Below are positions 1,930 through 10,050 of a stretch of 10,382 nt of DNA, one piece after another. The notes below the pieces were generated by a model. That model was not told the DNA's origin, did not search any database, and saw only the letters and a list, made by a program, of their open reading frames with translations. How positions within the stretch are numbered: the first letter of the stretch is position 1; the number at the start of each line of letters is the position of its first letter. Source of the stretch: Melioribacteraceae bacterium (lineage in GTDB: Bacteria > Bacteroidota > Ignavibacteria > Ignavibacteriales > Melioribacteraceae); NCBI GenBank assembly GCA_026987055.1, contig JALSNL010000311.1, forward strand, positions 1 through 10,382. Reading direction: 5' to 3'. A program made the translations under genes and the position numbers.

Positions 1930-1961
1930 TTAGACACATAAATCACTTATTGGGTTTAAAG
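1930..1961 (-). promoter_or_regulatory. Putative ECF-type promoter of the Spy-like gene
   Basis: Read on the minus strand, CTTTAAACC (1961-1953) is followed by exactly 17 nt and GTCTAA (1935-1930). The identical boxes with identical spacing lie upstream of the sigma gene at 2130-2161. The AAAC core upstream and GTC core downstream fit the general AAC/CGTC pattern of ECF sigma promoters. A start near 1922-1924 would give a leader of about 30 nt containing the GGAGG ribosome-binding site. Confidence 0.7.
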
Positions 1962-2055
1962 AAAACTTAGAGTTAATTTTACATAAAAATACTAAGTGAA
2001 AAAAGATGTAATAATAAAGACGGAATTATATATTACAAATAATTGCAAATAAATA

Positions 2056-2081
2056 TTGTAATGTACTCTGTAAAGTATAAT
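2056..2081 (+). promoter_or_regulatory. Possible second, housekeeping-type promoter upstream of the sigma gene
   Basis: A perfect TATAAT (2076-2081) is preceded by TTGTAA (2056-2061), but the spacing is only 14 nt, which is short for a sigma-70 promoter. In such AT-rich DNA this could be chance. If used, it would give a leader of about 100 nt that includes the hairpin at 2137-2175. Confidence 0.2.
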
Positions 2082-2129
2082 TAAATTTTTGCTTAGCGTT
2101 TTAATTTTTTAGAAATTACAAAGAATAAA

Positions 2130-2161
2130 CTTTAAACCTTTTTAGTAATAAAATTGTCTAA
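2130..2161 (+). promoter_or_regulatory. Putative autoregulated ECF-type promoter of the sigma operon
   Basis: CTTTAAACC (2130-2138), 17 nt, then GTCTAA (2156-2161) matches the element upstream of the divergent Spy-like gene in both boxes and in spacing. ECF sigma factors commonly transcribe their own operon, so this is the likely self-recognised promoter. Transcription would begin around 2167-2169 and leave a leader of only about 13-15 nt, with the GAAGGA site (2171-2176) almost at the 5' end. Confidence 0.7.
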
Positions 2162-3908: not shown

Positions 3909-4030
3909 AACAAATTGGTTCCCGGATTTTCAATTAGTCCTCTCTTTACGAAAGAGAGGATTTAGCCTGCCGCCAGCTTTTTTGGCGCGGGTTAGTTATT
4001 AAAATAAACTAATCCGAAAACCAATTTGTT
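3909..4030. repeat. Nested palindromic repeat element (REP/MITE-like)
   Basis: The outer arms are imperfect inverted repeats. AACAAATTGGTT (3909-3920) pairs perfectly with 4019-4030, continues through CGGATT (3923-3928) against AATCCG (4011-4016), and, after a 7-nt insertion, ends with AGT against ACT. Inside are two further hairpins. CCTCTCTTT-ACG-AAAGAGAGG (3939-3959) is a perfect 9-bp stem, extendable by a T-A pair. A GC-rich stem pairs 3966-3975 with 3983-3991 and has one bulged base and a T-rich loop. No target-site duplication and no coding capacity are visible. The local GC content stands out from its surroundings. This suggests a small mobile or repetitive palindromic element, possibly doubling as a transcription terminator for the sigma operon. 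Confidence 0.6.
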
Positions 4031-4345: not shown

Positions 4346-4429
4346 GCGGAAATGGTGAAATTGGTATACACGCTATCTTGAGGGGGTAGTGCTCGTAAGA
4401 GCGTGCGGGTTCAAGTCCCGCTTTCCGCA
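4346..4429 (+). tRNA. tRNA-Leu (anticodon GAG)
   Basis: This is a complete class II tRNA of 84 nt. The acceptor arm GCGGAAA (4346-4352) pairs perfectly with TTTCCGC (4422-4428), followed by discriminator A at 4429. The D-loop has the GGTGAAATTGGTATACAC leucine pattern. The anticodon stem is CTATC/GGTAG around loop TTGAGGG, with anticodon GAG at 4380-4382. The long variable arm is GCTC-GTAA-GAGC, and the T-arm is CGGGTTCAAGTCCCG. The layout matches bacterial tRNA-Leu(GAG), which reads CUC and CUU. The 3' CCA is not encoded (the genome continues C-G-G), so it must be added after transcription. Confidence 0.97.
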
Positions 4430-4472
4430 CGGTTATTAAATTATTTTTTTTAACAAAAGTAGGATTAGATCT

Positions 4473-5246
4473 ATGAAAAAAGTGTTTAAAATTGCCTTGT
4501 CCGTTTTATTATTGCTAGCCACAGTAAGTTTTGCTCAAGAAGGTGCAATGGATAAGGAAGCTGCCAAACTGTACAACCAAGGGAACAAACAAAAAAAATC
4601 CGGTGATTATGACGGTGCTTTAGCATCTTACACCGAAGCACTAAATAAATCAAAAGACTACAGAATTTATTATCAATTAAGTTCTGTATATAAAAAGAAA
4701 AGAGACTTTGCAAAATCTGAAGAAATGCTCAATAAAGCTCTTGAGTTAAACCCTAAATTTAATATTGCACATAATGCTTTGGGAACTACTTATTATTCTT
4801 GGGGCAAATATGAAAAAGCAATTGAAAGTTTTAAAAAATATGCTGAAAATGCAACTAAGAAGCGAGATAAAAAACGTGCAAAAAAATATATTGGTCTGGC
4901 CTATACAAAATTAGGTGATATTGCATTAAAAGAGAAAAACTATGATAAAGCTCTTGAATATTTGATGAATGCAGTATCTAACTATAATTATGATGCCGCT
5001 TATTTGAAATTAGCTGATATTTATTTGGATAAAGGTCAATATAACGAAGCTTTGCAAGCTGCCGATAATGCCGTTAAATATAAAAGTAGAAAATCAAAAG
5101 TACCTAAAGGTGCTCCTTATTTCTATAAAGGAATGGCATACAAAGGACTACATAATATTGCCAAAGCTAAAGAAAATTTCAAGAAAGCAAGTAAAGATAA
5201 AAGATACAGAGATAGAAGTAAGCATGAAATAAAATATTTAAGGTAG
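4473..5246 (+). CDS. Secreted tetratricopeptide-repeat (TPR) protein
   Basis: This encodes a 257-residue protein with a signal peptide of 21 residues (…ATVSFA, then Gln22) and no lipobox cysteine, so it is predicted to be soluble in the periplasm. About six TPR units follow, at roughly 28-60, 62-95, 96-131, 138-173, 174-205 and 213-245. Their consensus residues are clear, for example YKKKRDFAKSEEMLNKALEL and YYSWGKYEKAIESFKKY. The mature chain is strongly basic, especially at the C-terminus. An AGGA site (4461-4464) lies 8 nt before the ATG. The gene begins 43 nt after the tRNA-Leu with no visible terminator between them, so it may be read through from the tRNA promoter. It ends at its own strong terminator. 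TPRs mediate protein-protein contacts; the partner is unknown. The next locus encodes another, much larger periplasmic TPR protein, but the terminator separates the two transcription units. Confidence 0.9.
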   Translation: MKKVFKIALSVLLLLATVSFAQEGAMDKEAAKLYNQGNKQKKSGDYDGALASYTEALNKSKDYRIYYQLSSVYKKKRDFAKSEEMLNKALELNPKFNIAHNALGTTYYSWGKYEKAIESFKKYAENATKKRDKKRAKKYIGLAYTKLGDIALKEKNYDKALEYLMNAVSNYNYDAAYLKLADIYLDKGQYNEALQAADNAVKYKSRKSKVPKGAPYFYKGMAYKGLHNIAKAKENFKKASKDKRYRDRSKHEIKYLR

Positions 5247-5263
5247 AAGCTTAATACTTTTAG

Positions 5264-5291
5264 AAAAAGCCCGGTTAACCGGGCTTTTTTT
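5264..5291 (+). terminator. Strong intrinsic terminator
   Basis: An 11-bp stem, AAAAAGCCCGG (5264-5274) with 5279-5289, a TTAA loop and a seven-T run (5285-5291) form a textbook Rho-independent terminator. It starts 17 nt after the stop of the small TPR gene. Confidence 0.95.
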
Positions 5292-5439
5292 ATATTTATT
5301 TCAATTCAAATTATTTTTTAATACGATTTAACATCCTATAATAAATAAAGTTATAATCATAACATCATAATTCCCTTTAACTTAATTAACTAATTATTTA
5401 TATTAAGCAAATATATTTTTAATTTTATGGAACTCTTTG

Positions 5440-5468
5440 TTGTTTCATAACGTTTAATATTGTATTGT
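5440..5468 (+). promoter_or_regulatory. Possible promoter of the TPR/barrel operon
   Basis: TTGTTT (5440-5445) and TATTGT (5463-5468) are separated by 17 nt and end 23 nt before the ATG at 5492. The spacing is good, but the -10 box is a weak match, and the whole 5292-5491 gap is AT-rich. Some promoter must lie in this gap, because a strong terminator precedes it. Confidence 0.3.
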
Positions 5469-5491
5469 ATAAAAATTAAATTACCATTACT

Positions 5492-8464
5492 ATGAAATTA
5501 GTATTAAAATTCTATCTTCTATTACTTTTCAGTTCTTTATTATATGCTCAAAATGATGTAGAGCTTTATTCTTCTGCTATGGAAAGTTTTAATAAAAAAG
5601 ATTTTGCATACGCACTAAAAACATTTGAACAAATAATAAAATTAGATGAAGTTGATAAACAGTTGTTGTCCTCGTCAAAATATTATATTGGAGAATGTTT
5701 GCTTGGTATGCGGCAAATTGATGGAGCAATGGCGCAATATCAAAGTTTTATTGTAGAGTATCCGCATTCCGCTTTTGTAGATTTGGCTTTATACAAATTA
5801 GGAAGTTTACATTTCAATAAAAAAAATTATAATGCAGCACGTGATAATTTAATTGCGTTAATCAATAATTATCCTTCCTCAAAATATGTAGGCTCCGCTT
5901 ACTTTTTAATTGGCGAGTCTTTTATTAAACAAAATAATTTGAAGAAAGCCGAAGAGTTTTTTAAGACTGCCGTTAGAAAAAACAATAATAGTTCCTTTGC
6001 AGATTACAGCTTGTATTCTTTGGCAAATCTTTATGAGCAAAAAGGTGATTATGATAATGCAGTTAAGTATTATGATAAGTTACTCGGTTTTTATAGTAAA
6101 AGTAAGCTTGCACCTAAAGCTCAGTTAAGAATAGGTGTTTGCTATTTTCATTTGAATGAATATGATAATGCGGTAATTGAGCTGTCCGATCCTTTGATTG
6201 ATAAACTATCTACCGAAGAAAAAAATGAAGCGAATTTTGTTTTGGCTAATTGTTTTTACAGACTAAAAGAATATGAAAATGCATCGGAAACATATAAACG
6301 TATATTAGATAATTCTCCCTCCAAAGAAATGTTAGAAAAAATTCGCTACGGGTTAGCTTGGATTAACTTTCACGAAGGACATTATTTAAATGCATACAAA
6401 TTATTCAATGAACTAAAAAATTCCGGTAATGATTCTGTTGCAATAAAATCTTTTTATTGGAGTGGAGAAGCCCAACGATATGCCGGAAATAATAAAAAGG
6501 CAATAGAAATTCACAAAGCTTTTGCGGAAAAATATCCTGATAGTCCGCTAGCCGAAAGAGTAAAACTTAGCATTGGGATAAGTAAATTTAGTGAAAAAAG
6601 ATTTGAAGGTTCCGAAGATGCACTTTTGAAATCTATTTATTCCAGAGATCCCTTTACAAAAGCTAAATCTTTAACATTGCTTGGTGAAATAAATTTAAGA
6701 AAAAAAGAATACGGAACTGCTGCAGAATATTTTAAACGCGGTCTATTAGTAAAACAAATTGCTGCCGAATTAAAAGACCGTTGTTATTTAGGATTGGGCG
6801 TTGCTTATTTCTTTCAAAAAAATTATGTAGGAGCTTTGGAAGAATTAATCTCAATTGATATAAAGCGGACGAATGTTGATAAGAATAAATTAAACTTTTA
6901 CTTAGCCGAAGTTAATTTTTATCTTGGTAACTATTCAAAAGCAATTTCTTATTATAATAGAATTAAGAGCAACGATAGAAAAATACAAAAAAATACAATT
7001 TACGGAAAAGCATATTCATATTTCAATTTAAGAGATTACACTAAGTCGGCATTTCTTTTTGGTGAGTTCGTAAAAAAATACAGAGGTGATAGAAAAACGG
7101 CGGAAAGCAAAATGAGACTGGCTGATTCTTATTATGCATTAAAAGAGTTTGAAAATGCCAGCCGAATTTATAAAGATGTTTTAACACGTTCAAAAGAATT
7201 TGGGAAAGATGAAACAGCATATTTTAATTATGCTCAAACATTATTTAAAGCCGGTGATGCAACTACTGCTATTGAGGTCCTTTATAATCTGCAGAATAAA
7301 TTTCCTGCATCAAAATATGCAGATGATTCTCAATATTTAATAGGGTGGATTTATTTTCAAAAAAATCAATTTAACGATGCCATAGATAACTATAAAAAGT
7401 TAATAGACATTTATCCGAATTCTCCTACAATTCCAATTGCTTATTATTCAATTGGGGATTCTTATTTTAATCTTGGTAAATATAATGAAGCAATAAAAAA
7501 TTATAAAAAAGTAATAGAGCTTTATCCTAACAGCAAATATGTTTATGATGCTGTTAACGGAATACAATATTGTTATATTGTACAAGACAAACCAAAGGCT
7601 GCAATAAGCTATCTAAGCAAATTTATTAAAACTCACGACAATTTGGAATTTTTAGACAAAATACAATTTAAGAAAGCGGAAATATATTATAATAACGGGA
7701 ATTACCAATTAGCATTAAATGAATTTTCTAAAGTTATAGATAACTATCCGAAAAGTTCGTTAATACCATCGGCATATTATTGGATGGGAAAAAGCGAAGT
7801 GTTTTTAAAGCATCCTGAAAAAGCAATTAACTATTTTGAAGTTGTTAGAAGTACTTCACTTAACACCGAAATAGGATTTAACGCAGTTTTGGAAGCAGGA
7901 AAAATATACAGAGCACAAAAAGATTTGGAAAGTGAAGTTAATTTATATAATGATGTGATGACTAAAATAAAAAATCCTAAAGTGCTATCGGAATTAAATT
8001 TTGTAAAAGCACAAGCTTATATTGAGAACAATGATATCTCATCAGCGTATAAAGTACTAAATGAAATAATAGCAACACCCGACGGTTCATTGTTTTATCA
8101 CAAAGCGGAAATAGAACTTGGAATATTAGAATTGGTAAAAGGGAATTACGAGCATGCAATAAAGCTTTTTGAAGATGTAGCCAAAAACAGAAAAGATGAT
8201 ATTGCTGCCAAGGCTCTTTATTATAAAGGCTTGGCTTATTTTGATCAAAATAAATATGAAGAAGCTGTTGAACCCTTTATAAAAGTACGTTCATTGTATT
8301 CCGCTTATGATGAATGGTATTCGCAAGCTTTATTAAGGCTTGGAGATTCCTATGTTAAATTAGGTGAAAAAGAAAATGCCAAAGAAATGTATAAAGCAGT
8401 ATTAAAAAGACACAAAAGAGATCCTTTAGGAAAAGAAGCAACAGAAAAACTAAAAGAACTATGA
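5492..8464 (+). CDS. Giant periplasmic TPR solenoid protein
   Basis: This encodes a 990-residue protein. Residues 1-19 form a signal peptide (…SSLLYA, then Gln20). There is no lipobox cysteine and no transmembrane segment, so it should be periplasmic. The rest is a continuous array of TPR-type helix pairs, about 26 by eye. The period is mostly 36-38 residues, and many units have the YPxSxxxxxAxYxxGxxY form seen in BamD, CpoB/YbgF and related envelope TPR proteins. A good example is the stretch NFNLGKYNEAIKNYKK-like at about 665-685. The chain ends in a charged helix, KEATEKLKEL. No clear Shine-Dalgarno site precedes the ATG (TTACCATTACT), but the signal peptide fixes the start. The stop codon overlaps the start of the outer-membrane barrel gene in an ATGA. 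The coupling implies roughly matched synthesis and probably a physical partnership with that barrel. The substrate or cargo is unknown. Confidence 0.9.
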   Translation: MKLVLKFYLLLLFSSLLYAQNDVELYSSAMESFNKKDFAYALKTFEQIIKLDEVDKQLLSSSKYYIGECLLGMRQIDGAMAQYQSFIVEYPHSAFVDLALYKLGSLHFNKKNYNAARDNLIALINNYPSSKYVGSAYFLIGESFIKQNNLKKAEEFFKTAVRKNNNSSFADYSLYSLANLYEQKGDYDNAVKYYDKLLGFYSKSKLAPKAQLRIGVCYFHLNEYDNAVIELSDPLIDKLSTEEKNEANFVLANCFYRLKEYENASETYKRILDNSPSKEMLEKIRYGLAWINFHEGHYLNAYKLFNELKNSGNDSVAIKSFYWSGEAQRYAGNNKKAIEIHKAFAEKYPDSPLAERVKLSIGISKFSEKRFEGSEDALLKSIYSRDPFTKAKSLTLLGEINLRKKEYGTAAEYFKRGLLVKQIAAELKDRCYLGLGVAYFFQKNYVGALEELISIDIKRTNVDKNKLNFYLAEVNFYLGNYSKAISYYNRIKSNDRKIQKNTIYGKAYSYFNLRDYTKSAFLFGEFVKKYRGDRKTAESKMRLADSYYALKEFENASRIYKDVLTRSKEFGKDETAYFNYAQTLFKAGDATTAIEVLYNLQNKFPASKYADDSQYLIGWIYFQKNQFNDAIDNYKKLIDIYPNSPTIPIAYYSIGDSYFNLGKYNEAIKNYKKVIELYPNSKYVYDAVNGIQYCYIVQDKPKAAISYLSKFIKTHDNLEFLDKIQFKKAEIYYNNGNYQLALNEFSKVIDNYPKSSLIPSAYYWMGKSEVFLKHPEKAINYFEVVRSTSLNTEIGFNAVLEAGKIYRAQKDLESEVNLYNDVMTKIKNPKVLSELNFVKAQAYIENNDISSAYKVLNEIIATPDGSLFYHKAEIELGILELVKGNYEHAIKLFEDVAKNRKDDIAAKALYYKGLAYFDQNKYEEAVEPFIKVRSLYSAYDEWYSQALLRLGDSYVKLGEKENAKEMYKAVLKRHKRDPLGKEATEKLKEL

Positions 8465-10050
8465 AAAAAATAATCATTCTATTTTATTTGTTTACTATTT
8501 CTCTTTTGGCACAAAAAGAGAATAACACACAAAGTATTGAATTACCGGATTTTGTAATTACCGGCAAGCAAAAAATAACTATGCCTAAAATACAAAAAAA
8601 AGCACCGGATTTTATTCCGCTTTTATCAAAAGATTTTTTCAATCCTAAATTCCCAAGTGAAGAACAAATCCCAATTGATTTGCCGGAGCAGAGAATTGAA
8701 GAAGTTCGGATAGATAATAAACTTCAAGGGGCAAAAGGTTTATTAAAATTAAGCGGAGGTTTATATACTTTACCAAAAGGAGAATTGTTTTACGGTAATT
8801 GGATAAATAATTTTTCTTATAATACTCATTTATTCGGTTTGCAAGAAAAAGAATATATTAATAATGCCGGAATCACCAATTATGGCGGAAGCATTGGCGG
8901 TAAATACTTTGTTAAACAAGAAGCAAAAGTATTACCGGGTTTAGAGCTTTCGTTTGATGGAAATTACAAAAATGAAAAATATAATTATTTCGGTTCCTTT
9001 AAGCCTGATTCTAAAAGGGAATTTAAATTAGCTCATGGTAAAGTTGCTGCTAATTATACATCCAGAAGAAAATTTCAGTTTGGTTTAAATTTTAATGATA
9101 ATTATTTTGATCAGATAAACGATACAATAAATGAAAATATTTTTGGTACCAATGGATTCATGCAATTCAAACTTATGAACATGGATTTTAAACTTGAAGG
9201 AACATATAAAAACCAAACAATTGATAGAACACCAAAACATTTTGGAAATACTTATTACTTCAATACAATTGCAACTGTAAACATAAATCTATTCAGAAGA
9301 ATAAATATTAAAGCAGGTGCTTATATTGCGGAAAGTAATAAAAATACATTCTTTTCACCAATAGCTTACGGAAGTCTGAAACTAAGTAAAAATATTACCG
9401 TTTTAGGAGAATTTGCTCCTTATGCAGAATTACTTACAATGAAGGATTTTGTTGGTATGAATAGATACTACAAACTAAATAATTTTGTAAATTCATTTGT
9501 GGAAAATAAAGTTAATATTAAATTAGCTATGCGGTTTGAGTATGGTCCTTATTTTGAAATCAATGGTGGTGCCGGATATTTAAATTCCGATAATAATGTT
9601 TATTTTGTAGATAATGTAGTTCAAGGTTTTTTTAATGCCATTAAAGATGATACTGAAAATACTTATGTTTTTCTAAATGCTCTTTTTAGAAAAGGACCTG
9701 GTGGGGAATTTTACGGTGAATTAAAAGTTCAAGATGTTAGAGATTCGGATAACAAAAAGGTGCCTTATGCTCCTACCGTTACTGCTAATTTAACATATAT
9801 GTACAATTTCAATTCAGTGTTTGGAACTAAGCTGGAACTGAATTATCATAACGGAGCTTTTTCAAATAATACCAATACCGAAAAAATACCGGAGATGCTG
9901 GATGTATCTTTATCAGGTTATTACAAAATATTTAGGAATTTTAATTTTACATTAGCACTTGAAAATTTGCTTGACAATAAATACTATTATTATCAAAATT
10001 ATAAAGCAAAACCTTTTGATGTTTTAGCCGGATTTGAGTTCAGGTGGTAA
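8461..10050 (+). CDS. TonB-receptor-like outer-membrane beta-barrel lacking a plug domain
   Basis: This encodes a 529-residue protein. The signal peptide is cleaved after SLLA (residue 17), leaving Gln18. SIELPDFVITGKQ (25-37) resembles the TonB-box/VVTG start of TonB-dependent receptors. A Pro/Lys-rich linker runs to about 90. From about 93 to the end, alternating hydrophobic/polar strands with aromatic girdles and Asn/Asp-rich loops indicate a barrel. The C-terminal ~50 residues (LDVSLSGYYKIF…ALENLLDNKYYYY…AGFEFRW) are typical of the last strands of TonB-dependent receptors, including a terminal aromatic BAM signal. The usual ~110-130-residue plug between TonB box and barrel is missing, and the whole is shorter than normal receptors (about 600-1000 residues). 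It overlaps the giant TPR gene by 4 nt. It is probably a dedicated outer-membrane partner of that solenoid; transport or scaffold are both possible. Confidence 0.85.
   Translation: MKKIIILFYLFTISLLAQKENNTQSIELPDFVITGKQKITMPKIQKKAPDFIPLLSKDFFNPKFPSEEQIPIDLPEQRIEEVRIDNKLQGAKGLLKLSGGLYTLPKGELFYGNWINNFSYNTHLFGLQEKEYINNAGITNYGGSIGGKYFVKQEAKVLPGLELSFDGNYKNEKYNYFGSFKPDSKREFKLAHGKVAANYTSRRKFQFGLNFNDNYFDQINDTINENIFGTNGFMQFKLMNMDFKLEGTYKNQTIDRTPKHFGNTYYFNTIATVNINLFRRINIKAGAYIAESNKNTFFSPIAYGSLKLSKNITVLGEFAPYAELLTMKDFVGMNRYYKLNNFVNSFVENKVNIKLAMRFEYGPYFEINGGAGYLNSDNNVYFVDNVVQGFFNAIKDDTENTYVFLNALFRKGPGGEFYGELKVQDVRDSDNKKVPYAPTVTANLTYMYNFNSVFGTKLELNYHNGAFSNNTNTEKIPEMLDVSLSGYYKIFRNFNFTLALENLLDNKYYYYQNYKAKPFDVLAGFEFRW

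Follow-up and report, generated by a model that had tools for sequence, protein, structure and literature searches.

The window (the whole stretch of 10,382 nucleotides that was analysed) carries a three-gene operon headed by an ECF sigma factor gene and, transcribed away from it, a gene for a small periplasmic protein of the Spy/CpxP family, with two opposed predicted promoters in the region between them (Table 1). Open reading frames were taken from simple scripts, and their start codons are guesses.

Table 1. Features of the sigma factor operon and the divergent Spy-like gene, in window coordinates
Feature	Position	Strand	Details
Spy/CpxP-family periplasmic protein, 156 aa	1424..1894	-	signal peptide by eye; GGAGG ribosome site 1903-1899
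Divergent Spy-like promoter (predicted)	1930..1959	-	-35 TTAAACC 1959-1953; 16-nt spacer 1952-1937; -10 TGTCTAA 1936-1930
Sigma operon promoter (predicted)	2132..2161	+	-35 TTAAACC 2132-2138; 16-nt spacer 2139-2154; -10 TGTCTAA 2155-2161
ECF sigma factor, 182 aa	2182..2730	+	PF04542 at 24-90, PF08281 at 122-174, no other domain
Probable anti-sigma factor, 201 aa	2720..3325	+	11-nt overlap with sigma gene; one hydrophobic helix at about residues 79-97
Second, distant Spy/CnrX-like periplasmic helical protein, 156 aa	3335..3805	+	third gene of the operon

Comparisons were made with a set of 38 genomes, consisting of the window's own and 37 relatives, and with a further 80 loci from a scan of named genomes, which were the best 80 of 424 matches and were labelled as Ignavibacteria, Ignavibacteriales, Melioribacter, Stygiobacter and relatives, or only as Bacteroidetes, Chlorobiota or bacterium. 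The sigma profile matches SigW (5wuq) at E 1.4e-26. The second-best NCBIfam model for the window sigma factor is NF058625 (the sigma_PG0214 / GFO_1088 family) at 92.5 bits, and strict membership of that family was rejected since the score is below the 130-bit cut-off. The product of the second gene, probably an anti-sigma factor, gave no convincing match in Pfam or the PDB, and its AlphaFold model is weak (pLDDT 68). A gene with a hydrophobic helix adjoins or overlaps the end of the sigma gene in 78 of the 80 named loci, and in the remaining two only 352 and 501 bases are left beyond sigma.

The third protein of the operon found no Pfam match in its window form, and PF13801 was matched in 3 of 20 relatives; its profile gave no significant match to Spy or CpxP in the PDB. 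Comparison of the third gene with the divergent Spy by hhalign gave 98.4%, with weak structure matches, and the best Foldseek match of its model was CnrX, also weak (E 0.14). Inspected for metal-binding residues of the kind expected in a CnrX-type sensor, an alignment of 20 rows showed neither His nor Cys at any invariant or almost invariant position, and Met only as Met1. By a spacing rule the third gene is missing from four of the 80 loci, two of which are cut by contig ends and two of which are not (L193 and L263). For the divergent gene, a profile of 25 relatives matches E. coli Spy (3oeo, E 3.1e-10) and CpxP (3itf, E 4.8e-5), and at E 0.001 the relatives match PF13801 (25/25) and PF07813 (24/25). 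The sequence match that places it in the Spy/CpxP family was obtained with this alignment profile, and the window protein by itself scores under both Pfam cut-offs. The tail of the protein is rich in His and Met, as in several relatives, and might bind metal.

Other features were observed on either side of these genes. Upstream, a secreted repeat protein (141-1358) ends in a C-terminal sorting-type domain (NYPNPFNPSTVIKF...), which we take to be typical of type IX secretion cargo. Past the operon, a short inverted repeat, CCTCTCTTT-ACG-AAAGAGAGG, was seen by eye at 3939-3959 and is possibly a terminator or a repeat element. It is followed by a tRNA-Leu gene (anticodon GAG, 4346-4430). Three more proteins are encoded within 4473-10050, two of them secreted and of the repeat type (257 and 990 aa) and one, of 529 aa, probably located in the outer membrane. 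The neighbourhood looks syntenic, since in the relative G008 (locus L079) the operon is followed by two similar proteins, 252 and 990 aa long, and by the beginning of a third.

A search of the window for CTTTAAACC-N15..19-GTCTAA returned exactly two matches, at 2130-2161 on the plus strand and at 1961-1930 on the minus strand, both with N17, and none of 200 dinucleotide shuffles of the window contained a match. The initial annotation had described these as identical, opposed ECF-like promoter sites that were not copies of a duplicated block and that each lay at a suitable distance from its gene. The pair was recovered as described; a third match to CTTTAAACC-N17-GTCTAA was absent from the recovered genome (2.35 Mb in 458 contigs, 68.6% complete), in which the reversed control had 0 matches. 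The spacers differ and are unrelated in sequence, and there are 20 bases between the end of the plus site (2161) and the sigma ATG (2182), and 35 between the end of the minus site (1930) and the Spy-like ATG (1894). The extent given for the boxes stood in part, the TTAAAC[C/T] and TGTC[T/A]A portions being conserved across relatives and the leading CT not.

The -35 boxes of the two window sites are 172 nt apart. Transcription of the sigma operon would start near 2167, and on the Spy side a conserved CAAAA, 5 to 9 bases past the -10 box (1925-1921 in the window), probably marks the start-site region. Sigma-70-like sites within 1850-2250 were at chance level (2 found vs 2.6 expected), and RNA-family and tRNA scans returned nothing accounting for the promoter site.

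A clear orthologue of the sigma factor was found in 36 of the 38 genomes, own included, at E 1.9e-52 or better, the two without it being G013 and G015. In all 36 the sigma gene is preceded by TTAAAC[CT]-N16-TGTC; under the same strict rule the reverse copy is present in 33 of 36, three of them with N17, and a one-mismatch copy was found in G002 and G032 (with N17 in G032) and none in G031. Pooling with the named loci gave 116 loci, from which 19 near-duplicates were taken out to leave 97. The sigma-side site is present in 97 of these 97 (86 exact and 11 with one mismatch), and its spacer is 16 nt long in 96 and 15 nt in one. At L239 and L244 the sigma-side site carries one mismatch. For the reverse site the count is 95, of which 89 match exactly and 6 differ at one position, with a spacer of 16 in 86, 17 in 8 and 15 in one. 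Shuffled upstream regions matched that well, on one strand, in 16 of 1160 cases. Conservation of the boxes in orthologous loci, which the initial annotation had named as a check, is thus seen in both directions.

The conserved core across relatives reads TTAAAC[C/T]-N16-TGTC[T/A]A, usually followed by A. Over the 97 loci the box positions are near-invariant and the spacers carry about 0-0.2 bits per position, the invariance being partly by construction because sites were picked within one mismatch. Most sigma-side sites begin 45-65 nt upstream of the start codon chosen for sigma. The two promoters are separated by 0 to 438 nt, and each retains its own spacer. As to promoter class, the -35 AAC of ECF (group IV) sigma factors is present, with TTAAAC in the window and in 96 of 96 aligned forward sites, themselves selected within one mismatch. 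The -10 element here is TGTC[T/A]A and lacks the CGT of the early ECF definition as outlined in a section of PMC8103513, in which the defining features are described as having later been restricted to two domains, relaxing the CGT criterion.

The reverse promoter follows the Spy-like gene. By profile search a divergent Spy-like gene is present in 79 of the 80 named loci, and by inspection a small secreted Spy-like gene is in this position in 35 of the 36 other loci. The exceptions are L217, with a 770-aa open reading frame in the divergent place, and G031, with a 605-aa frame of another kind, and the reverse promoter is absent from both. Because the two loci without Spy are the two without the reverse copy, the reverse promoter tracks the Spy-like gene and not sigma, and the tie between motif, divergent gene and sigma module drawn in the initial annotation is supported. 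The joint absence amounts to a natural experiment in promoter gain and loss. In G031 the motif also occurs elsewhere (L104, 809-837), 31 nt ahead of the gene for another small secreted protein, which possibly replaces Spy in that genome.

Sites away from the sigma locus were sought in the 38 genomes with a stricter motif, TTAAACC-N16-TGTCHA. Of 99 strict sites, 55 were at the sigma locus and 44 elsewhere; the reversed pattern gave 32, and since 44 barely exceeds this control the raw counts were set aside as evidence. Position was informative: 33 of the 44 lie between genes and are followed, 5-120 nt further on, by an open reading frame of >=80 aa on the same strand, the distance being 20-45 nt for 20 of these 33, compared with 1 of 30 control sites meeting the same rule (Fisher p 2.8e-10; 30 of the 32 control sites were classified, and 2 were without a locus). 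Eight of the 44 fall inside open reading frames. The strict motif was absent from the two sigma-less genomes, G013 and G015, and also from G036, which has the sigma factor, because its boxes read TTAAACT.

Within 270 nt of the sites elsewhere, 37 downstream genes were identified, and a Pfam scan covered 36 of them (L133 was left out). Ten of the 37 belong to one outer-membrane beta-barrel family with a carboxypeptidase-like N-domain, the barrel being seen in the fetched part of six and assigned in the rest by matching coordinates. Six encode efflux adaptors of the HlyD/CusB type, and in two of these cases the site is 173-184 nt away. Three are related lipoproteins by eye, one of which matches LTXXQ under the cut-off, and one small protein weakly matches Metal_resist and LTXXQ. 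There is also one ECF sigma gene, and the remainder are single cases or one pair each. The ECF gene, different from the one studied here, lies behind the motif at L137 1545-1573 (genome G009), and possibly reflects a sigma cascade. Barrels were then sampled independently of the motif by picking 20 further high-scoring genes by family. Of the 19 in sigma-bearing genomes, 7 had a site within one mismatch and 12 did not, where about 0.08 of 20 would be expected, and the single gene from a sigma-less genome had no such site.

A scan of the window's own genome that allowed one mismatch gave 10 sites, the known pair included, vs 19 for the reversed control, so that no trans target is shown there; a near-match on C418 was rejected, its spacer being one base too long. 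The motif that the initial annotation put forward for a regulon is supported in relatives, with 33 of 44 sites upstream of genes vs 1 of 30 and many of the genes encoding envelope proteins, while in the incomplete own genome it is represented by the local pair only.

Among 296 genomes from the phylum, 163 contain a match to the sigma profile at E 1e-32, in most cases a single one. Forty distant loci outside the window's order (20 of the same class and 20 of other classes) were chosen from 135 genomes with a match, mostly the better-scoring ones. A sigma-side promoter within one mismatch was present in 24 of the 40 (17 with N15 and 7 with N16), against 0.05 expected; the other 16 lacked such a site, start codons at these loci being guessed. 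The third-gene profile matches downstream in 37 of 40 and the anti-sigma profile in 22 of 40, and in 24 of 40 the divergent-Spy profile also matches the third gene. The reverse copy within one mismatch was found in 0 of 40. Because it is kept in distant Bacteroidota loci, the operon of sigma factor, anti-sigma factor and Spy-like protein, together with its promoter, looks old. None of the distant loci has the reverse copy, so the divergent promoter of Spy seems to have been added in the window's order.

These observations are best accounted for by an autoregulated ECF sigma/anti-sigma module of envelope stress, in which both boxes are very probably promoters read by RNA polymerase holoenzyme carrying the sigma factor encoded at 2182-2730. 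Computation established the conservation of both promoters and of the operon, the co-occurrence of the reverse copy with Spy, and the non-random placing of trans sites in relatives; that the local sigma factor reads both promoters is our inference. The forward promoter would drive the sigma factor, the anti-sigma factor and the co-transcribed Spy-like protein, giving positive autoregulation, and its mirror image would drive the second Spy-like periplasmic chaperone. In the resting state the sigma factor would presumably be sequestered by the anti-sigma factor in the membrane. Envelope damage, possibly sensed through the Spy-like protein of the operon, would release it to amplify its own synthesis and raise Spy and, in relatives, to induce further secreted proteins as well as outer-membrane barrels and efflux adaptors. 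The Spy-like proteins may feed back as CpxP does on CpxA (described in a passage of PMC4160245).

Three other explanations were weighed. The sites may be true ECF promoters used mainly by a paralogous ECF sigma factor, with the local one merely among its targets. Between 6 and 18 matches to the sigma factor were found per genome (38 genomes, E 0.001, orthologue included), ECF sigma factors of similar specificity could share sites, and one motif does precede another ECF gene (L137). Yet the motif accompanies the local type of sigma factor as far as the 24 distant loci and is missing from the two relatives that lack it, two genomes being few, and autoregulation is the norm among ECF sigma factors according to a portion of PMC8103513, which makes this explanation unlikely. 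Slightly less probable still is that a dimeric transcription factor binds the paired TTAAACC boxes as a palindromic operator, GGTTTAA-N10-TTAAACC, and that the TGTC boxes are incidental. The -35 boxes do form an inverted repeat 8-13 bp apart in 53 of 95 loci, but the spread of half-site distances up to 438 nt, the 172 nt in the window, and the 21 wider gaps, which show no helical phasing (Rayleigh p 0.54-0.89), do not suit an operator, while TGTC stays fixed 16 nt from TTAAAC at nearly every site and single copies stand ahead of trans targets and distant sigma genes. That the repeat is chance or duplicated sequence without function, in a region that is AT-rich by eye, is scarcely credible given 0 of 200 shuffles, both copies in 95 of 97 loci and unrelated spacers.

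Taking the boxes as promoters of the local sigma factor, a broader interpretation is possible, which we hold tentatively and at somewhat less than even chance. The module may be a local form of an envelope-stress response widespread in Bacteroidota, in which an ECF sigma factor, a membrane anti-sigma factor and a Spy/CnrX-like protein reading misfolded proteins are autoregulated from a promoter common to the phylum. A mirror-image promoter, often 8-13 bp off, would have brought a second Spy into the circuit in the window's order, so that one regulator sets both amplification and chaperone output, and the two polymerases may exclude each other.

Autoregulated ECF sigma operons are common, about 55% by one prediction (cited in a part of PMC8103513), and PMC12596196 deals with ECF regulons of B. 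thetaiotaomicron, the string TTAAAC being absent from its main text. A literature search, mostly outside subscription papers, found no ECF work naming Ignavibacteria, and no system of this kind appeared among the titles and abstract openings listed for ECF sigma factors with Spy, CnrX, Metal_resist or Bacteroidetes. As far as these searches reach, the kind of system is known, and the wiring and its spread are new. The analysis yields a promoter sequence that can be tested, the sigma factor likely to recognise it and a candidate envelope-stress regulon in a group for which the literature search gave no ECF paper, and the sigma-side promoter extends to other Bacteroidota.

Several known systems resemble this arrangement. 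In CnrYXH of Cupriavidus metallidurans an ECF sigma factor, an anti-sigma factor and a periplasmic Spy-like sensor also occur together, in a gene order that differs from that of the window operon, whereas the recurring targets in the window's relatives are barrels and adaptors. EcfG-NepR/PhyR likewise pairs a sigma operon with a divergent gene, both expressed from promoters of their own sigma factor (as set out in an excerpt of PMC8103513), but there the divergent gene encodes a partner-switching regulator and no periplasmic chaperone, and the promoter is different. In E. coli, Salmonella and Vibrio cholerae cpxP is divergent from cpxRA (as summarized in part of PMC6737893), and stress displaces CpxP, which otherwise inhibits CpxA (according to the same passage of PMC4160245). 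The Cpx system thus also places a Spy-fold periplasmic gene divergent from its own envelope-stress regulator (PMC6737893), but that regulator is a two-component system acting via CpxR, whereas here both genes have the same sigma-type promoter. In ZraPSR of E. coli the periplasmic chaperone gene zraP and the regulator genes zraSR share one regulator-bound intergenic region (as outlined in a section of PMC8249747); ZraR is a response regulator, whereas here there are two separate promoters, presumably read by a sigma factor. The Cpx/Zra layout, in which a Spy-fold gene faces its own regulator, thus appears here with a sigma factor in the regulator's place, an indication of convergent circuit design.
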